The notes under the pieces were generated by a model, which was not told the origin of the DNA, did not search any database, and was given only the letters and a program-made list of their open reading frames with translations. DNA of 64,000 bases from Halanaerobium sp. MA284_MarDTE_T2 (GTDB taxonomy: Bacteria > Bacillota > Halanaerobiia > Halanaerobiales > Halanaerobiaceae), in assembly GCF_003337245.1 (NCBI RefSeq), contig NZ_QPJE01000005.1:1-64000 (forward strand), written 5' to 3'. The position numbers were made by a program, and so were the translations under genes. The stretch's first letter is position 1; every line of letters starts with the position of its first letter. This document shows, in pieces, positions 55,493-64,000 of the stretch.

Positions 55493-55563
55493 CTTTCATG
55501 AAATATAATTGATAATAAAATTGAGTCTTGAAATTTTACTGTTTTTTATCAAGAAATAATATA

Positions 55564-55607
55564 TGGTGCCCCCGGTAGGAGTCGAACCTACGCTCAAGGC
55601 TTCGGAG
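55564..55607 (-). other. tRNA-Arg(CCG) 3' half, probable attachment-site scar
   Basis: On the minus strand these 44 bases begin with anticodon loop CTCCGAA (anticodon CCG), continue through the 3' anticodon stem GCCTT, T-arm GTAGG-TTCGACT-CCTAC, acceptor strand CGGGGGC and discriminator A, and end in an encoded CCA. No 5' half is next to it: the bases before the loop cannot pair with GCCTT. Tyrosine recombinases of integrative elements often use exactly anticodon-loop-to-CCA as core site. No integrase gene or second copy is in the window. Confidence 0.75.
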
Positions 55608-55803
55608 AGTTTTGTCGAAGTTCCTTATATTAGCATCTTTTCTTATAATCCCTGTCATAACAACAATCTATTGATGGAAATATCCCATATAGTTGTAAAT
55701 AACTGTATATTTTACTGCGGTATTTAACGGTGGCTGAGGCTCACTGCGGTGAAATCACGGTGGAAAATCGAATAAAATTTGCATCTCAATTGGAGATGAT
55801 TTA

Positions 55804-55860
55804 CCCTCAGAGAAGCTTCATTTTTTCGATTAATGATGGAGCTTTTCTGGGGGTTTTGTT
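55804..55860. repeat. terminator-like palindrome, copy 1 of a dispersed repeat
   Basis: CCCTCAGAGAAGCTTCATT and AATGATGGAGC...TTCTGGGGG form a long hairpin followed by TTTTG. A closely similar copy, including flanking bases, lies at 63609-63665. The interval 55493-56032 otherwise contains only the tRNA scar; no gene is supported. Confidence 0.7.
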
Positions 55861-56032
55861 AATAATATCTGTTATTGGACAATTATCACTGTCTTTTGCT
55901 TTAATACAATCAAAGACAAATGGAAGAAATATTAAGTCCACAATGCAGAACAAAGGGGAAAAAGTTAGTGTAGTAACAATAAAAACTGATTGAAAAAGAA
56001 GTTGAAAGGAATAACTCTTGTCAAATCTGATA

Positions 56033-56800
56033 TTATAAAGAAAATATTAATATTAATCCAAGTGGAATACAATAATAGGCAAAATAATGAAGTTTTTGTT
56101 CCTTTATCATTTTTAAGAAAAAGTTAATAGCAAGATAACCTGTGATCATTGATGATATAGTAGCTAAAAATAGATAGAAATAATTTAGGTCAGTTGTACC
56201 ATTTAAAGTTAATTCTTTTAGTTTGAGAAGAGTTGCTCCTCCTATGACAGGTATAGAAAGAATAAACGAAAATTTGGTAGCAAGTTCTCTGTTTAAATTT
56301 TTATATAAGCCGGCAGCTATAGTAGATCCAGAGCGAGATAAACCGGGGAAAATTGCAAGTGCCTGAGCTAGTCCTATAAAAATCGAATCTAAAATCGACA
56401 TATCTTTTATCTGCCGTTTATTGATTGTTATTTTATTAGTTAGCCAGAGTATTATACCGGTAATTATTAAAAAAAACCCGACAACAGTTAAAGAAGAATT
56501 CATTTTTTCAAAAAAATCTTCAAAAAATATCCCTACAACTGCAGCAGGGATTGAGCCGATTATGATATATAGATTAAAAGTCTTATATTCATCCTTAAAA
56601 TAAATCATATTTAGTATATCCTGGTAATACACAAAAAATATTGCCAGTAAAGTTCCAAAATGCAAAAAGATGTCAATTGTCAGTCCAGCTTTAATATCTA
56701 AAAAATATTTAAAAAGCACAATATGCCCTGAACTGCTGATTGGTAAGAACTCAGTTATTCCCTGGATTACGCCTAAAACTAAGTACTTGATAATTTCCAT
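56033..56800 (-). CDS. uppP: undecaprenyl-diphosphate phosphatase
   Basis: A 255-residue membrane enzyme with about eight helices that recycles undecaprenyl pyrophosphate for cell-wall synthesis and confers basal bacitracin tolerance. Signatures are QGITEFLPISSSGH (about 14-27) and FPGLSRSGSTIAAGLYKN near 155-172. An AGGACATTTGTCCG sequence 37 bases upstream of its start also occurs, inverted, beyond the two upstream minus-strand genes. Confidence 0.94.
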   Translation of the reverse strand: MEIIKYLVLGVIQGITEFLPISSSGHIVLFKYFLDIKAGLTIDIFLHFGTLLAIFFVYYQDILNMIYFKDEYKTFNLYIIIGSIPAAVVGIFFEDFFEKMNSSLTVVGFFLIITGIILWLTNKITINKRQIKDMSILDSIFIGLAQALAIFPGLSRSGSTIAAGLYKNLNRELATKFSFILSIPVIGGATLLKLKELTLNGTTDLNYFYLFLATISSMITGYLAINFFLKMIKEQKLHYFAYYCIPLGLILIFSL

Positions 56801-56836
56801 AAATAACCTCCAATATATTTTTATTAAATTACATTT

Positions 56837-56860
56837 AGGACATTTGTCCGGTCCTATTCT
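56837..56860. repeat. left terminal-inverted-repeat-like sequence of the DUF1670 cassette
   Basis: AGGACATTTGTCCGGTCCTA at 56837-56856 is the inverse of the sequence at 58540-58559 with two to three mismatches over about 23 bases. The similarity runs inward from both ends. The core GGACA-TT-TGTCC is itself palindromic. TTA precedes GGACA here and follows TGTCC at the right end, a possible 3-bp target duplication. Confidence 0.65.
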
Positions 56861-56887
56861 TTCTAATTCTTAGTATTTCAAATTAAT

Positions 56888-57664
56888 CTATTTTTTATCA
56901 TTATCAGAATCAAAATATTCAGGATGGTATTTTTCTATTAGCTTCCTGTATTGTTTGATAACAGAAGCTCCTCGGCCTGTCATATGTTTGATCTGGATTG
57001 TGCTTATACCGCGTCTAATCAGGAATTTAACGCGCTCATAGTCCTTGATATATCTATCAACAGCATTTAATGAATGATCTGTTTTTCTGGCTATATCAGG
57101 TGGCTGAACTTTTTGCTCATAAAGCTCAATTATTGCTTTTTTATGAGTAGTTCCACGACCCATATCCAGTATATAACCTTTAAGAGGTAACACATCATCA
57201 TGAGTATCATGATATTCGCCAATACGCTTTGAAATGGTTACTGTAGAACGATTCATTATTGCTGCCAGTTCCTCAACAGTTAGCATAGCACCCTGCTTTT
57301 TAGCAGCTTTGGTTAGCCTGGCAATACGGATCATATCATGTTCTGTTTTGGATACATTATTTCTTTTTAGTTCTATATCTTTCTCAGTAACATAGGGAAG
57401 TTCAATGACTTCCTGTTTGTATTCTTCACGCTTTTGACCCAGTTTTGGCTTGTTATTCTGCTCGGAAGTAGCAATCCAGCTTAGACTGCCAAACTGATTG
57501 GTCTTTTTGCGGGGATGATATTTATACTCTAATTCAACAATATCTTCAGCTATTAGTTCTAGTATTTTATGACTGCCAAGTAGTTTGTATTCACTCTCTA
57601 AAAGCTCGATGATAGCCTGCCTGAATGTCTTTTTATCCAGGTTAGCAAAAGGGTCCTGTCTCAT
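56888..57664 (-). CDS. DUF1670-like helix-turn-helix protein (second gene of pair)
   Basis: A 258-residue soluble protein. A central helix-turn-helix (about 126-150; MLTVEELAAIMNRSTVTISK) is followed by LKGYILDMGRGTTHKKAIIE near 158-177 and a second HTH-like region (PPDIARKTDHSLNAVDRYIK ... IRRGISTIQIKHMTGRGASV). The same order appears in the neighbouring gene, so the two are paralogues, probably of the DUF1670 family. Its start overlaps the stop of that gene by 4 bases. The function is unknown; DNA binding is likely from the HTH motifs. Confidence 0.7.
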   Translation of the reverse strand: MRQDPFANLDKKTFRQAIIELLESEYKLLGSHKILELIAEDIVELEYKYHPRKKTNQFGSLSWIATSEQNNKPKLGQKREEYKQEVIELPYVTEKDIELKRNNVSKTEHDMIRIARLTKAAKKQGAMLTVEELAAIMNRSTVTISKRIGEYHDTHDDVLPLKGYILDMGRGTTHKKAIIELYEQKVQPPDIARKTDHSLNAVDRYIKDYERVKFLIRRGISTIQIKHMTGRGASVIKQYRKLIEKYHPEYFDSDNDKK

Positions 57665-58482
57665 TTGATGACCCCCTTTTTTGCCTCAGTTTTTACTGAA
57701 GCTTTTTCTTCGGCTATGTTAACTATGTCAGCAATACGCTCTTTATACTCAGAGCTGTTGTATTTAAAATACAGTTCGGTATATTCTTTAACTAATCTTT
57801 CTGAGATACCAACTATATGAGCTGTTTCTTTGATTGAAAGCTTATTCTTTATTGACAGCAATACACGACCAAAATCATTGATATATCGCTTAATTGCTCC
57901 AGGAGAATGTCTGGTTTTCCTCTGTATTTCAGAGTAGGTATTATATTCAAGATACAGTTTGATTATCTTAGTTTTATGAGATACTCCAGGTCCTATATCC
58001 TGATATGTACCTCGGGTTTGAACATTAAACCCCTGAGCTTTAAGCTTTTTGATATCCCGTCTGATAGTTCTTGTGGAAACCTGTAGAATATCAGCCAGAT
58101 CTTCCTGGGTTAGAAGACCACCCTGATCGAGTGATTCTTCTGTCATTCTCAGTACTTTAACTTTTCTTAGGGCAGATTTATTTTCTATTCTAAAGAGTGT
58201 TTTATCCTCTTTAGTTATTGATTTAGTCAGGGTTACCTGAACCTTTGGTAAATCTTCTAGAACTGGACCGTGTTTTGCTTTCTTAGAGATTACAGTCTTA
58301 ACTATTTTATCTTTACTTTCATGATATGATGGATCATAATGTTTTAGTTGGTAGACTTCATTAGCAGCTTCTACAATTGCTTTTGCTTCACGTGGTGAAT
58401 ATTCAAATAGTTCTTTAAGAATATATTCAAATTGACTATCTAAAGTTTTAACTTTTACACGATCAAGTTCAGTTTTAGGCAT
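57661..58482 (-). CDS. DUF1670-like helix-turn-helix protein (first gene of pair)
   Basis: A 273-residue paralogue of the following gene. A DeoR-like winged HTH lies at about 118-150 (LLTQEDLADILQVSTRTIRR, DIKKLKAQGF). After it come TRGTYQDIGPGVSHKTKIIK near 152-171, IQRKTRHSPGAIKRYINDFG near 182-201 and a C-terminal HTH-like SIKETAHIVGISERLVKEY. The start ATG 58482 follows AAGGGGGGA. The pair forms a two-gene operon flanked by inverted repeats. No transposase or nuclease motif is seen in either protein. Confidence 0.7.
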   Translation of the reverse strand: MPKTELDRVKVKTLDSQFEYILKELFEYSPREAKAIVEAANEVYQLKHYDPSYHESKDKIVKTVISKKAKHGPVLEDLPKVQVTLTKSITKEDKTLFRIENKSALRKVKVLRMTEESLDQGGLLTQEDLADILQVSTRTIRRDIKKLKAQGFNVQTRGTYQDIGPGVSHKTKIIKLYLEYNTYSEIQRKTRHSPGAIKRYINDFGRVLLSIKNKLSIKETAHIVGISERLVKEYTELYFKYNSSEYKERIADIVNIAEEKASVKTEAKKGVIK

Positions 58483-58536
58483 TGGTTGTCCCCCCTTAAC
58501 TATATATTATATCAAATTCTTTTGTTAGTCGAACTT

Positions 58537-58559
58537 GATTAGGGGCGGACAAATGTCCT
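58537..58559. repeat. right terminal-inverted-repeat-like sequence of the DUF1670 cassette
   Basis: TAGGGGCGGACAAATGTCCT (58540-58559) is the inverted partner of 56837-56856. It also lies upstream of the DUF1670 operon's TATAAT (minus strand, 58506-58511), so it could be an operator rather than a transposon end. Confidence 0.65.
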
Positions 58560-58659
58560 TATTTATTATAGCATATAGTTTTCATTTTAACAAATTGAGT
58601 TTTTACTCCTGTTTCAATAATTTAATTAAGTCCGGTGAATAGTAGGGTGAAAGATTTTT

Positions 58660-58688
58660 TTGACGCTAGGGAAGAAATATAGTATAAT
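58660..58688 (+). promoter_or_regulatory. predicted promoter of the LysM/M23 gene
   Basis: TTGACG (58660-58665) and TATAAT (58683-58688) with 17-base spacing, 90 bases before the start codon. Confidence 0.75.
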
Positions 58689-58778
58689 ATATTTGAACAT
58701 CTACTCATACATTAAAAGTTTATTCTATTCTTTACTATTTTTATACAATACTAATGAAAACAGGGAGCAATCTGAAAT

Positions 58779-59909
58779 ATGAAAAAAAGATTTATAGCTA
58801 TTCTTTTATTAATTGCATTTACAATAATTTACAAAAACTTTGTTCTGGGAGAGCAGCATTTGGAAAGCACAAGAGTTCCCAGAGGATCTATTTCTGTAAA
58901 AAAAGAACTTGATCTTAAGCAAAACTCAAAAGAAAATTCAGATTTTAGTTTGATTATAACGGAAAAGCGAAAAAATGTACTGGAGAGAAAGACCGATTTT
59001 GTTAAAATCAAAGAAGAATTTAACCTCTCAGAGAATTCAGAACTTAATTTTGCAGAAAATCAGTTAGAATTTAATAATAAGTTAGAATACATAGAAAAAT
59101 TATATAAAGATAAAGACACAAAGTATAATATTGAAAGCTCCAGTCAGGGTTTTACTGAAGAATTAGTTAAAGAAAATAGTCGAAAGCCGGGCAGTAGAAT
59201 TGGTTTAATTAATCAAATAAAAAAGCACAGAGTAGAAAACGGTGAAACTCTTTGGGATATTGCTCAAAAGCACAATGTGGATTTAGATACTTTAATTGGG
59301 GCAAACGATATTAATAATATTAATAAAATAAAACCCGGTCAAACGATAAAGGTTCTTCCAGTAAAAGGGATCTTATATAAAATAAGTCCGGGGGAGAATC
59401 TTTCATCTATTACTGATAAGTTTAATATAAGTTTAAACAAAATTATTGCCAGTAATTTAATTAATAATCCAAATAGGGTTCAACCTGGTGATACATTAAT
59501 CTTACCTGGAGCAAAACCTGAATTTGGTTATCGTGATCGCCTTGAAAAAGTATTTACTAAACCAGTATATGCAAGAATCTCGTCTTATTTTGGTAGGAGA
59601 TGGGGTAGAATGCATGAAGGTATTGATTATGCAGCTCCTTCAGGTTCGAAAGTGAAAGCATCAGGTGAAGGTAGAGTTGTATATAGTGGTTGGGCTAGAG
59701 GTTATGGTAAAACTATTATTATTGAACACCAAAAAGGAATGAGAACACTTTATGCACACAATTCTAAGTTGATAGTCAATACTGGAGATAGAGTTTCAAA
59801 AGGTGATTTAATAGCAAAATCCGGTAATACCGGTAATACAACAGGACCAAATGTGCATTTTGAGGTTCAGGTTAATGGAAGACCAGTTGATCCTTTATCA
59901 TATATTTAA
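58779..59909 (+). CDS. LysM-LysM-M23 peptidoglycan endopeptidase
   Basis: A 376-residue envelope protein. An N-terminal signal anchor (about 4-22) is followed by a charged spacer (about 30-140), LysM domain 1 (about 147-192; VENGETLWDIAQKHNVDLDT), LysM domain 2 (about 197-242; SPGENLSSITDKFNISLNK) and a C-terminal M23 domain (about 275-375). The M23 metal ligands are visible in MHEGIDYAAPSGS and NVHFEVQVNGRPVDP. It probably cleaves or remodels peptide cross-links in the wall. A single gene with its own promoter and terminator. Confidence 0.92.
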   Translation: MKKRFIAILLLIAFTIIYKNFVLGEQHLESTRVPRGSISVKKELDLKQNSKENSDFSLIITEKRKNVLERKTDFVKIKEEFNLSENSELNFAENQLEFNNKLEYIEKLYKDKDTKYNIESSSQGFTEELVKENSRKPGSRIGLINQIKKHRVENGETLWDIAQKHNVDLDTLIGANDINNINKIKPGQTIKVLPVKGILYKISPGENLSSITDKFNISLNKIIASNLINNPNRVQPGDTLILPGAKPEFGYRDRLEKVFTKPVYARISSYFGRRWGRMHEGIDYAAPSGSKVKASGEGRVVYSGWARGYGKTIIIEHQKGMRTLYAHNSKLIVNTGDRVSKGDLIAKSGNTGNTTGPNVHFEVQVNGRPVDPLSYI

Positions 59910-59910
59910 A

Positions 59911-59940
59911 AGATTTACCTAAGGGTAAATCTTTTTATTT
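59911..59940 (+). terminator. rho-independent terminator after the M23 gene
   Basis: AGATTTACC, a TAAG loop and GGTAAATCT form a perfect 9-bp stem followed by TTTTATTT. Confidence 0.9.
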
Positions 59941-59971
59941 AAACAATATATAAATAATTGCTCAATCATTG

Positions 59972-60019
59972 TTGACAAAAATCGAATTTAATTGTATACT
60001 ATATATGAACAATTATTCA
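59972..60019 (+). promoter_or_regulatory. promoter and ArsR/SmtB-type operator of the metal ATPase gene
   Basis: TTGACA (59972-59977) and TATACT (59995-60000) are 17 bases apart. TGAACAATTATTCA at 60006-60019 is the inverted repeat recognised by ArsR/SmtB/CadC-type metal sensors and overlaps the start of transcription, as needed for repression. A weaker related sequence (ATAATTGCTCAATCATT) lies just before the -35 box. A matching ArsR gene is 3 kb downstream. Confidence 0.75.
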
Positions 60020-60057
60020 ATTAATCATATATTAAATTATAACTAGGGAGGATTATT

Positions 60058-62298
60058 ATGCCAGAAAAAGCAGAAAATAAGAAAAAGAAATTTGAACTAG
60101 AAGGTTTGACCTGTACTAATTGTGCAGGTAAGATTGAGAAAGAAGTTAATAATTTAGAGGATATAGAAAAGGTGAGTTTGAATTTTGCTACCAGCACGAT
60201 TACTGTTGAAGGAGAGGGTGCTGATAATTCATTTGAAAATGAATTGCAAGAAATTGCAGATAGAATAGAACCTGGCTTAACTGTTAAGGAGTCTAGAAAT
60301 AGACGAAAAAGAGCTAATCAAAAGTCTGATCACAACCAGGTCCATGAACATAATCACGAGGACGGTCGTGTAAATGATCACGAAGAGAGTCACGGACATG
60401 ATCGCGATCATGGGGTTGACGATGAAAATTCTTATCTTAAAAAACGATTCTGGCCGGGAACAATAATTTTTGCTCTGGCAATAATTCTATTCGAACTACC
60501 ATTTTTGGAAGTAGAATTGGGAAGTTTATCAATATATCTGGAATGGCTACTTTTTGGTTCCAGTTACCTGCTTATCGGTGGACCAGTATTAATGGCAGCT
60601 TTCAAAAATATAAAGCGAGGCCAGGTCTTTGATGAGAACTTCTTAATGAGTATAGCAACAATTGGAGCTTTTTCTATTCAGGAGTTTCCTGAAGGTGTAG
60701 CAGTAATGCTTTTCTACATGGTTGGTGAGATTTTCCAGGAAAGAGCAGTTGACCGTTCCAGACGCTCAATTAAAAAATTAATGGATATAAGACCTGATTA
60801 TGCTAATTTAAAACTTGAAGATACAACAAAAGAGGTTGACCCTGAAGATGTTCAAATAGGTGATATAATAATTATAAAACCTGGTGAAAAAGTACCACTT
60901 GATGGAGAAGTGCTTGAAGGAAGTTCTATGGTGGATACTTCAGCACTTACCGGGGAATCTGTTCCGCGTAAAGTTGAAACTGGTGATGAAATTTTGAGTG
61001 GAACGATTAACAAAGATGGTTTATTAACAGTAGAAGTGACAAAAGAATATGGTCAGTCAACAGTATCTAAGATTTTGGAACTTGTGGAAAATGCCAGTGC
61101 AAAAAAAGCACCAACTGAGAAGTTTATTACTAAATTTGCCCGTTATTATACACCGGTTGTAGTCTATTCGGCTCTGGCTATTGCGGTCTTACCGCCACTA
61201 TTTTTACAGGGAGCAGCCTTTGCAGAGTGGTTTTATCGAGCTCTTATCTTTTTAGTTATTTCCTGTCCCTGTGCACTTGTAGTATCCATTCCGTTAGGAT
61301 TTTTTGGAGGAATAGGTCGAGCATCGCGACAGGGCGTTCTGGTTAAAGGTGGTAATTATCTGGAAGCACTGAACAATGTTAGTCAAATAGTATTTGATAA
61401 AACTGGAACTTTAACTAAAGGAGAATTTGCTGTTAGTAAGGTGGAATCATATAATGGCTTTAATAATGAGCAGATTTTAACTATGGCTGCTTATGCTGAA
61501 AGTCATTCCACCCACCCGATAGCAAAGTCCATTGTCGAAGCGTTTGACCAGAAAATTGATAATCAAAGAATAAAAGATTATCAGGAAATTTCTGGACACG
61601 GGATTAAAGCTGTGGTTGATGACAAAGAAATTCTGGCAGGTAATATCAAATTAATGAATAAAAATAACATTGAATATCAGGAAGTTGATGCAGATGGAAC
61701 AATTGTTTATCTAGCGATTGAAAATAAATACGCAGGTTATATAACAATTACGGATGAATTAAAAGAGGATTCGATAAAGGCAATTAAGGGTTTAAAAGAA
61801 TTAGGTATTAAACAGTTAACTATGTTAACTGGTGATCGGGAGGCAGTTGCCGGGAGAGTAGCCCAGCGGCTTGGCTTAGATAATTATTATTCTGAACTTC
61901 TACCGGATCAGAAGGTAGATGAAATTGAAGAATTACTTGGCAGACAGAAAGAAAATGATAAACTTATCTTTGTAGGAGATGGAATCAATGATGCACCTGT
62001 TCTGGCTCGCTCTGATATAGGTGTTGCTATGGGAGGACTTGGTTCAGATGCAGCTATTGAGGCAGCAGATGTTGTCTTAATGACAGATGAACCTTCAAAA
62101 TTAATTACTGCTATTAATACTGCCCGGAGAACAAGAAAAATTGTCTGGCAGAACATTATTCTGGCCTTAGGTGTAAAAGGAATAGTACTTATAATGGGTG
62201 CTATGGGTATGGCAACCATGTGGGAAGCCGTCTTTGCTGATGTTGGTGTAGCATTAATTGCTGTCTTTAATGCTATGAGAATTAGCCGTAATGTTTAA
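60058..62298 (+). CDS. P1B-type heavy-metal exporting ATPase (Zn/Cd/Pb class)
   Basis: A 746-residue membrane pump. An HMA domain has Cys19 and Cys22 (LTCTNCAGK). A His/Asp/Glu-rich linker (about 94-122) looks like an extra metal-binding buffer. Helices follow, with the Cys-Pro-Cys motif at 403-405, phosphorylation Asp447 in DKTGTLTKG and GDGINDAPVLARSDIG near 640-655. The CPC motif, HMA and DVGVALIAVFNAMR in the last helix suggest the ZntA/CadA group that expels Zn2+, Cd2+ or Pb2+. The ArsR operator upstream supports metal induction. Confidence 0.9.
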   Translation: MPEKAENKKKKFELEGLTCTNCAGKIEKEVNNLEDIEKVSLNFATSTITVEGEGADNSFENELQEIADRIEPGLTVKESRNRRKRANQKSDHNQVHEHNHEDGRVNDHEESHGHDRDHGVDDENSYLKKRFWPGTIIFALAIILFELPFLEVELGSLSIYLEWLLFGSSYLLIGGPVLMAAFKNIKRGQVFDENFLMSIATIGAFSIQEFPEGVAVMLFYMVGEIFQERAVDRSRRSIKKLMDIRPDYANLKLEDTTKEVDPEDVQIGDIIIIKPGEKVPLDGEVLEGSSMVDTSALTGESVPRKVETGDEILSGTINKDGLLTVEVTKEYGQSTVSKILELVENASAKKAPTEKFITKFARYYTPVVVYSALAIAVLPPLFLQGAAFAEWFYRALIFLVISCPCALVVSIPLGFFGGIGRASRQGVLVKGGNYLEALNNVSQIVFDKTGTLTKGEFAVSKVESYNGFNNEQILTMAAYAESHSTHPIAKSIVEAFDQKIDNQRIKDYQEISGHGIKAVVDDKEILAGNIKLMNKNNIEYQEVDADGTIVYLAIENKYAGYITITDELKEDSIKAIKGLKELGIKQLTMLTGDREAVAGRVAQRLGLDNYYSELLPDQKVDEIEELLGRQKENDKLIFVGDGINDAPVLARSDIGVAMGGLGSDAAIEAADVVLMTDEPSKLITAINTARRTRKIVWQNIILALGVKGIVLIMGAMGMATMWEAVFADVGVALIAVFNAMRISRNV

Positions 62299-62315
62299 TT
62301 AAGCAAGTAAAAAAT

Positions 62316-62375
62316 CCCTCTGAAGCTTAAAAATAATTTCATCAGAAAATATGTTCAGATAAAATCTTCAGGGGG
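62316..62375. repeat. terminator-like palindrome in inverted orientation
   Basis: CCCTCTGAAG (62316-62325) and CTTCAGGGGG (62366-62375) pair around a 40-base loop. On the plus strand no T-run follows; on the minus strand the stem is followed by ATTTTTTAC. It resembles the palindromes at 55804 and 63609 in reverse orientation. Confidence 0.5.
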
Positions 62376-62405
62376 AAATCATTTATAAGGCTGTGGGGGA
62401 TTATA

Positions 62406-63026
62406 ATGAAATATTATGATATCTTTTCTTATCTATATGATCTACTAGCACCTGACTGGTATTATCACAAGCCGCGAAAATTTGCTATTGAAAAACTGGA
62501 TTTAAAAAAGAACAGTAATATAATAGTTTTACCCTGTGGAACTGGACAAAGTTTTAAATATCTTAAAAATCAGTTGAAAAGTAATGGTTTAATAATTGGT
62601 ATTGATTATTCTGAAGGAATGTTGACAAAAGCCAGGAAAAAAATTAGAAAAAAAGGTTGGAATAATATAATAACTTTACATGAAGATGCTGCTAGATTTA
62701 ATAAATCTGATATTGCATCTATTTCAGAAGAAGAATTAAATATTGATGCTATCTATCTCGAATTGGGTTTATCAGCTATGCCTGAATGGCAAAAAGTTAT
62801 TGATAAAAGTCTTTCGCTTGTAAGGGATGGCGGGAAAATTGTTATTATGGATTGGTATATGGAAGAACCCAATTTATGGGGCCGTTTTATAGACTTAATT
62901 GGTAATGCTGATGTTACTAGACCAACCTGGGAGTATTTAAAAAGCAGAAAAGAAGTGAAAGATTTTAATTTAAATCACAGTTTTAAAAATGGCGGTGTCT
63001 TTGTTGCTTCAGGATATAAAGTTTAA
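62406..63026 (+). CDS. class I SAM-dependent methyltransferase
   Basis: A 206-residue Rossmann-fold methyltransferase of the UbiE/Methyltransf_11-25 kind. Motif I reads IIVLPCGTGQSFKYL (about 38-52), then IIGIDYSEGMLTKARKK near 62-78, LHEDAARF and VRDGGKIVIMDWY near 138-150. The usual acidic residue and glycines of motif I are partly replaced (PCGTG for DxGxG), but this is common in this subgroup. The substrate is unknown. It sits between the metal pump and the ArsR gene. Confidence 0.82.
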   Translation: MKYYDIFSYLYDLLAPDWYYHKPRKFAIEKLDLKKNSNIIVLPCGTGQSFKYLKNQLKSNGLIIGIDYSEGMLTKARKKIRKKGWNNIITLHEDAARFNKSDIASISEEELNIDAIYLELGLSAMPEWQKVIDKSLSLVRDGGKIVIMDWYMEEPNLWGRFIDLIGNADVTRPTWEYLKSRKEVKDFNLNHSFKNGGVFVASGYKV

Positions 63027-63138
63027 CCCCAATAATTGCTGCTGTATAATTTAGATTAAAGTAAATGCCTTCTATTAGAAATTAATCTATGTTAAAATAA
63101 ATATAAGGTGCTAGTTTTGATTTGGGGGAGATGATTTA

Positions 63139-63507
63139 ATGGCAAAAGACAAAAATTTTTGTGATATGTGTGAAGTGTTTGACCCGGATGAGCAGGTTGT
63201 AAATTTAATGAAAGACCGTAAACTTCAAGAAAATATTGTTTATCAGCTTTCAGAACTATTTAAGACCATAGGAGATCCAACACGGATAAATATTTTATAT
63301 GCTTTAAAAGATAGGGAGTTATGTGTTTGTGATTTGTCTGAAATACTGGAAATGAGTTCTTCTGCAATATCTCATCAATTAAGAGTTCTTAGGAACAATA
63401 ACCTAGTTAAATATCGAAAGGAAGGTAGGTCTGTTTATTACTCTCTGGATGATAATCATGTTTTATGTTTGTTTGGACAGGGTTTGAATCACGTTTTAGA
63501 GGATTAA
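63139..63507 (+). CDS. ArsR/SmtB family metal-responsive repressor (CadC-like)
   Basis: A 122-residue winged-helix repressor. The recognition helix lies in SSSAISHQLRVLRNNNLV near 73-90. The metal-site motif ELCVCDL (near 58-64) is the ArsR/CadC alpha-3 site, and an N-terminal CDMC (near 8-11) supplies further thiols as in CadC. The likely target is the TGAACA-type operator in front of the metal ATPase gene. The start follows GGGGGAG. Confidence 0.9.
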   Translation: MAKDKNFCDMCEVFDPDEQVVNLMKDRKLQENIVYQLSELFKTIGDPTRINILYALKDRELCVCDLSEILEMSSSAISHQLRVLRNNNLVKYRKEGRSVYYSLDDNHVLCLFGQGLNHVLED

Positions 63508-63608
63508 TATTTTTATCTTTAGATGTAGTTTATAAAAATTAAACTTACTGGATTTTTCAGAAACAATGCATTTTATTATTGAACTATAAATTTGGGTGCG
63601 ATTATTCA

Positions 63609-63665
63609 CCCTCAGAGAAACCTTCATTTTGTTCAGTTATTGATGGAGCGTTTCTGGGGGTTTTT
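63609..63665 (+). terminator. terminator-like palindrome after arsR, copy 2 of the dispersed repeat
   Basis: CCCTCAGAGAAACCTTCATT and its inverted partner ending TTTCTGGGGG form a long stem followed by TTTTTG. It lies 102 bases after the arsR stop and is about 80 percent like the copy at 55804. Confidence 0.75.
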
Positions 63666-63776
63666 GTATAATATTTTTTTCAGGAGTATCTAATAATTAG
63701 ATATTATTTCGAGTTTTATGTAATATAATAAATTTAGGCTCAATTAGTAAGTTGTAATATCAGGGAGGTGCTGAAA

Positions 63777-63848
63777 ATGAAAGATAAGAAAAAAGTAGCT
63801 AAGAAAAAACCTGAGAAGAAAGAAGAAAAAAAGGAAATAAAGAAGTAA
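63777..63848 (+). CDS. 23-residue lysine-rich peptide
   Basis: ATG 63777 follows a strong GGGAGGTG and opens a 23-residue frame (MKDKKKVAKKKPEKKEEKKE, then IKK and TAA). Fourteen of 23 residues are Lys and the rest are largely Glu. A terminator hairpin follows 39 bases later, so the gene has all the parts of a small independent unit. The function is unknown; a nucleic-acid-binding or ribosome-associated peptide is possible, and chance cannot be excluded for so short a frame. Confidence 0.5.
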   Translation: MKDKKKVAKKKPEKKEEKKEIKK

Positions 63849-63887
63849 TTCCTTTAATAAGTCAAAACTAAACAATGTATATTTTTC

Positions 63888-63918
63888 CCTGTAGACTAAT
63901 AGTTACAGGGTATTTTTT
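63888..63918 (+). terminator. rho-independent terminator after the lysine-rich peptide gene
   Basis: CCCTGTA (63888-63894) and TACAGGG (63904-63910) with an inner ACT/AGT pairing, followed by TATTTTTTG. A further hairpin, CCGCAC/GTGCGG, lies near 63962-63983 at the window edge without a visible T-run. Confidence 0.75.
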
Positions 63919-64000
63919 GTTGAACTATTTGATTGGTGAAGTTGATGAGTGTTAAAAACCTCCGCACATATCTATAAGTGCGGATAACTTTAACGGATTG

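Follow-up and report, generated by a model that had tools for sequence, protein, structure and literature searches.

A 1.7-kb stretch of the genome of Halanaerobium sp. MA284_MarDTE_T2, carrying two overlapping genes of the DUF1670 family, behaves in comparison with related genomes as an insertion, and we regard it as virtually certain that it is a mobile element. It lies in the first 64,000 nucleotides of contig NZ_QPJE01000005.1 (assembly GCF_003337245.1; this whole stretch is referred to as the window), with the upstream gene termed g2 and the downstream gene g1. The flanks of five copies, from the window and from the genomes G011 (Halanaerobium congolense) and G013 (another Halanaerobium), were joined and searched against the genomes of the source's family. 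The window site proved to be empty in four relatives (G009, G007, G010, and G005), where the flanks are ~97-99% identical and meet at a single TT: the empty site reads TATTAAA-TT-ATTATAGC and the occupied one TATTAAA-TT-[ACATTTAGGACA...GTCCTTAT]-TT-ATTATAGC. The source genome itself holds one copy of the element, G011 three full copies of the gene pair plus one fragment, and G013 one copy; the copies in these two relatives are 92-95% identical to that in the window over ~1740 bp, and the similarity stops abruptly at both ends. The site of the G013 copy is empty in G009, G010, and G005, that of the C6 copy of G011 in G010, and that of the C2 copy in G008; for the C10 copy of G011, flanks rejoined at one TT are in frame, in a comparison with diverged relatives only. 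The three G011 copies and the G013 copy interrupt reading frames, with TT on both sides and one TT in the relatives lacking them, and the interrupted genes, named by eye, are of DNA-metabolism, CbiQ-like, DUF871-like, and TetR-like type.

The original prediction, made from the letters of the window, had described two paralogous, overlapping minus-strand DUF1670-like genes between a palindrome and its inverse, and had considered an undescribed mobile element as one explanation. The arrangement was found as described: both proteins match PF07900, the genes overlap by 4 nt (ATGA), and the palindrome and its inverse are in place (Table 1). The similarity of the ends, running inward for about 23 bases with two to three mismatches according to the prediction, amounts to 20 of 23 bases (AGGACATTTGTCCGGTCCTATTC / AGGACATTTGTCCGCCCCTAATC), and profile, sequence, and fold searches agree with its statement that neither protein shows a transposase, recombinase, or nuclease motif. 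Mobility is upheld by the sharp stop of homology at both ends together with the empty sites in four relatives. Two details had to be amended. Homology had been expected to end exactly outside the GGACA repeats; its loss is indeed sharp, but the borders lie further out, 7 bp (left) and 4 bp (right) beyond the palindromes. Likewise, empty sites exist, but with a single TT instead of the single TTA foreseen; the TTA taken for a target duplication belongs to the element in the empty-site alignment; the true duplication is the TT outside of it.

Table 1. Parts of the element and their positions in the window.
Feature	Position	Strand	Length	Basis or remark
Whole element	56831..58562	minus	1732 bp	Borders of homology to the copies in G011 and G013; alignment to empty sites
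TT, left copy of the 2-bp duplication/core	56829..56830			Once in empty sites, twice in the window
Outer 7 nt of the long end, ACATTTA	56831..56837		7 nt	Kept as ACAYTTA in Halanaerobiales copies
Long-end palindrome GGACATTTGTCC, at gene 3' end	56838..56849			Probable protein binding site
g1, DUF1670 protein	56888..57664	minus	258 amino acids	PF07900, E 7.2e-53; AlphaFold model
g2, DUF1670 protein, upstream gene	57661..58482	minus	273 amino acids	PF07900, E 2.2e-52; AlphaFold model
Short-end palindrome GGACAAATGTCC, at gene 5' end	58547..58558			Inverse of GGACATTTGTCC
Outer 4 nt of the short end, TTAT	58559..58562		4 nt	TTAT throughout, with GCAT in its place in the G029 subfamily
TT, right copy of the 2-bp duplication/core	58563..58564			

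The ends follow a strict grammar. Within the Halanaerobiales, all 16 long ends read TT-ACAYTTA-GGACA, all 12 short ends GTCC-TTAT-TT or GTCC-GCAT-TT, and TT is present at all 28 ends, always in the same orientation; the bases beyond it vary, leaving TT as the only visible target requirement. G029 contributes at least five element copies or ends, L005 is a decayed long end (118 bp at 89%), and L243 keeps only part of the 3' end, with an empty counterpart in G003 (L265). A shared plan of 2-bp flank, 7 nt, palindrome, genes, palindrome, 3-4 nt, and 2-bp flank can also be read in Spirochaetaceae (L118), Neomarinimicrobiota (L121, L122, L124, L160), Methanophagales (L129), Poribacteria, and others. 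Several remote loci whose ends are short or diverged were left out, except those readable by eye (among them Poribacteria, L154, L170, L175, and L189). Lineages carry palindromes of their own (GGAAGTACTTCC, GGCCATATGACC, TATCAWATGATA) and differ in which gene end bears the long end. The flanking pair, read by eye, is TA/TA in KSB1 (L175) and Atribacteria (L154) and CT/CT in Thermoplasmatota (L182). Since both sides agree even when they are not TT, the pattern suggests that the dinucleotide is copied or matched rather than being a fixed part of one end.

Target choice can be more specific. Poribacteria genomes hold five to seven copies each, mostly at the stop codon of one repeated gene family. 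This family has 30-40 matches in each genome, and several of its members without an insertion read TA[CT]-TT-CCGTATC or a close variant at the site. The Poribacteria elements (L132-L151, L183) give the occupied genes a new stop codon, possibly reflecting a preference for safe sites. Two Neomarinimicrobiota elements (L124, L160) are inserted precisely into the TT core that adjoins the long end of another, distinct DUF1670 element, an outcome that a requirement for similarity between the target and the joint of the element itself would predict.

The palindrome occurs beyond the elements as well. We counted 5 occurrences of GGACAWWTGTCC in the source genome, and 11 and 14 in the genomes of two relatives that carry the element, versus 0-2 in the reversed control, and its recurrence thus exceeds chance. 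Single copies are common in genomes of the source's family and mostly intergenic among the sites inspected. At L249, L244, and, reversed, L247/L274, the outer parts of both ends surround one palindrome, and 20-odd bp are missing at the L247 site in the aligned G007 and G009. A deletion between the two ends would explain such solo scars, because the palindrome repeats itself in the direct as well as in the inverted sense; enzymatic excision may be an alternative origin. Further solo copies of GGACAWWTGTCC (L004, L250, L251, L252) lie in another conserved surround (TATAATACCA...AAATATAA), and an additional subfamily may have left them as scars. On G010 C10 and C11, two related but unclassified repeats (L245, L246) each include GGACAATTGTCC or GGACAAATGTCC within conserved neighbouring sequence; this genome has no DUF1670 genes. 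In L043 (G029), a further inverted repeat (AGCTGCT-GGACATCGT-AGCAGCT) is nested inside the short end; its loop holds a half-palindrome, and the Halanaerobium copies lack this repeat.

Related elements are widespread. DUF1670 was detected in 30 of 399 sampled genomes of the source's phylum (E 1e-10), with many matches at contig ends, as is the case for repeats. Named matches come from Bacteria (Halanaerobium, Tenuibacillus, Spirochaetaceae, Neomarinimicrobiota, Poribacteria, KSB1, Chloroflexi, Acidobacteria) and Archaea (Methanophagales, ANME/Methanosarcinales, Undinarchaeales, Thermoplasmatota). Most related elements consist of two DUF1670 genes of ~270 amino acids each between two 12-bp palindromes; the genes are paired in 52 parsed element loci, some of them near-identical copies, and overlap by ATGA in 28. 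One natural fusion of 541 amino acids exists (Tenuibacillus, L120), and a second, long form combines a protein of 520-590 amino acids with two modules and one of 430-490 amino acids. An origin from phages or plasmids was considered and discarded: g1 gave no phage match, g2 no plasmid match, and the family no match in viral contigs.

Both window proteins match PF07900 over nearly the full profile (179.6 and 178.1 bits, cut-off 25). All 70 sequences that we scanned from two alignments match this family too, the remaining Pfam matches are helix-turn-helix (HTH)-type domains almost without exception, and the Pfam scan of these 70 revealed no catalytic domain of a transposase, recombinase, or nuclease. 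Weak matches to HTH_7 in 4 of 35 g1 proteins were not accompanied by a resolvase catalytic domain in Pfam, and no NCBIfam model scored above its cut-off. The AlphaFold models (mean predicted local distance difference test scores 84.1 and 83.5) comprise N-terminal helices, one two-strand hairpin, and three HTHs, the count of three being based on the helix pattern and Pfam matches. Foldseek searches returned nothing at E 0.001, either for both proteins against the PDB or for g2 against viral models, and a PDB sequence search gave no transposase for either protein. A profile hit of g1 to 8vd6 ('CAP REPEAT', E 2.9e-8) was dismissed as spurious: it covers 28 residues, no stretch passes alone, and the name suggests a repeat protein. 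We found no paper naming DUF1670 or PF07900 among 5.39 million open-access papers, a search that did not extend to ISfinder, and literature on unclassified insertion sequences yielded nothing of use.

Strong purifying selection acts on both genes, with nonsynonymous (dN) and synonymous (dS) divergence from the Halanaerobium copies of 0.017-0.021 and 0.22-0.33 for g1, and 0.006-0.018 and 0.18-0.19 for g2. Invariant residues are R112, L124, D128, R157, D162, G164, H169, H192, Y200, F204, and S227 in 30 non-redundant g2 proteins and W63, R116, H174, K175, Y205, and Y239 in 30 g1 proteins; R, D, H, H, and Y are also kept in the second modules of the long form. Residues that both paralogues retain in most copies, or in all, make up a candidate active site, namely R112, D162, H169, K170, H192, R199, and Y200 in g2 and R116, D167, H174, K175, H197, R204, and Y205 in g1. 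Because the palindromes differ among lineages, the polar residues that do not vary probably have no part in reading bases and are candidates for roles in catalysis or fixed structure; the conserved H..RY falls within the stretch matching HTH_28.

We consider it probable that the element is a complete insertion sequence with the DUF1670 pair as its own recombinase or transposase, and catalysis by DUF1670 is, to the same degree, the likely source of its movement. We infer the following course of events: g1 and g2, translationally coupled, would act as the element's own transposition machinery; their HTH domains would bind the 12-bp palindromes near both ends, and the bound proteins would bring the two ends together. 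Cutting beside the 2-bp core (TT in the window copy) may then allow the element to be joined to a matching target dinucleotide, perhaps through a circular intermediate, with one copy of the core left on each side. That this would be a conservative 2-bp exchange rather than a 2-bp duplication of the DDE type is possible, if somewhat short of probable; the fixed orientation of TT and the matched TA and CT, the latter based on few non-TT cases, would be easier to explain by an exchange dependent on core identity than by random staggered cuts.

Several points weigh against this model. The helices, two-strand hairpin, and three HTHs of both AlphaFold models offer no recognizable catalytic fold or motif, and the invariance of residues could reflect a structural role within the HTHs. 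The 2-bp pattern taken alone would fit a conservative exchange as well as a 2-bp target duplication. Alternatively, the DUF1670 pair might only bind the ends, for targeting and regulation, while a host or co-resident recombinase does the cutting, as the recognized domains are DNA-binding only and the models lack a catalytic fold. We nevertheless hold such movement in trans, which the original prediction had raised as a possibility, to be unlikely: elements with a DUF1670 pair and no recognized internal catalytic partner occur in very different bacteria and archaea, and a host enzyme would therefore have to be universal; moreover, both genes are strongly conserved where this was tested.

Less probable still is that the pair represents a highly diverged DDE, tyrosine, serine, HUH, or DEDD enzyme overlooked in the searches by profile and fold and with AlphaFold. 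The fixed dinucleotide of the 2-bp core is reminiscent of serine recombinases and IS607, the order R...K...H...R...Y loosely of tyrosine recombinases, and D/H/H/Y of HUH enzymes; yet the models show no RNase H, resolvase, HUH, or integrase-like sheet, the conserved H..RY overlaps the HTH_28 match, and Foldseek against the PDB gives no match below E 0.04. The original prediction had also entertained an immobile regulatory operon, whose HTH proteins would bind operators located upstream of uppP and of the operon itself, a notion in keeping with the HTH domains, with a palindrome ~37-49 bp upstream of the uppP start, and with the mostly intergenic solo GGACAWWTGTCC sites. This has become negligible, because four relatives have empty sites ahead of uppP and the palindrome there arrived with the element, being absent from relatives whose flanking DNA is about 98-99% identical; in addition, the G011 and G013 copies lie inside genes, and the solo site L247/L274, with its palindrome and both outer ends, is absent in relatives, as for a deletion scar.

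Returning to the proposal of a self-mobilizing insertion sequence, the element resembles insertion sequences in general in its size, inverted ends, gene content limited to mobility-type genes, several copies per genome, and empty sites, but encodes no recognized transposase; PF07900, matched by both genes, had neither a described function nor a link to mobile DNA in the sources searched. IS630/Tc1-mariner elements produce a 2-bp TA duplication by means of a DDE transposase. The duplication length is shared, whereas the models and searches of the present element give no DDE/RNase H domain, its dinucleotide, although TA or CT in single lineages, is in most cases TT with a fixed orientation, and it carries two paralogous HTH proteins. 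With IS607 and other serine-recombinase elements it has in common a directional 2-bp core on both sides and, in Halanaerobiales, little further target preference, but no serine recombinase domain is seen in sequence or model. IS110/IS1111 elements employ a DEDD transposase, a bridge RNA, and a short core common to element and target; such a core is present here, a DEDD/RuvC domain is not, and the ~60-80 bp of non-coding DNA per element end could hardly accommodate a bridge RNA outside the genes. IS200/IS605 elements have an HUH Y1 transposase and palindromic ends and insert after a short target. A palindrome near each end and fixed target bases on one strand are shared features, but an HUH domain is lacking and a 2-bp duplication can be read; also, the palindromes have a 2-nt centre and therefore look like double-stranded binding sites. 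Finally, the ISNCY groups of ISfinder with two open reading frames (e.g. ISA1214) are alike in that both frames are small, in their archaeal occurrence, and in belonging to no main family, but the direct repeats of ISA1214, at 8-12 bp, would not fit the 2 bp of the present element. ISA1214 is named only in passing in PMC5473848. The element may already stand in ISfinder as unclassified.

As to the surrounding DNA, the element lies upstream of uppP, with its genes pointing towards it and a gap of ~30 bp to the start codon (window 56801-58564); uppP may depend on read-through, its own promoter possibly having been lost to the insertion. With the element removed, the block 55790-64000 shares 98.3-98.8% identity with Halanaerobium G009 C21; at most of the other loci tested in the source genome, the similarity is far lower (about 65-85%). 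The block holds uppP, an M23-type peptidase, a heavy-metal ATPase, and an ArsR-type regulator, and looks recently acquired from Halanaerobium, or like a misjoined contig; its edge lies at a repeat (55563-55863) of which G009 has several copies. A different ~1.5-kb insertion with an apparent 8-bp duplication occupies the same uppP/peptidase intergenic region at L071/L083 (G005 C5:46824-49013).

Five types of catalysis, DDE, DEDD, HUH, tyrosine, and serine, ordinarily serve to classify the transposable elements of prokaryotes. Here, an element family with proven insertions is present in both Bacteria and Archaea, and its two proteins fit none of the five by sequence or predicted fold. We put forward as a tentative proposal, which may well prove wrong, that DUF1670 heteromers form a new class of recombinases or transposases, built of HTH modules without a known catalytic fold and mobilizing the insertion sequences of bacteria and archaea through a directional 2-bp exchange. 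If DUF1670 is catalytic, it would add a sixth way of moving DNA and might serve as a compact tool whose core spans 2 bp; otherwise, the pair would direct another enzyme, which would be unusual as well. Either way, a Pfam family of unknown function would gain a function class.
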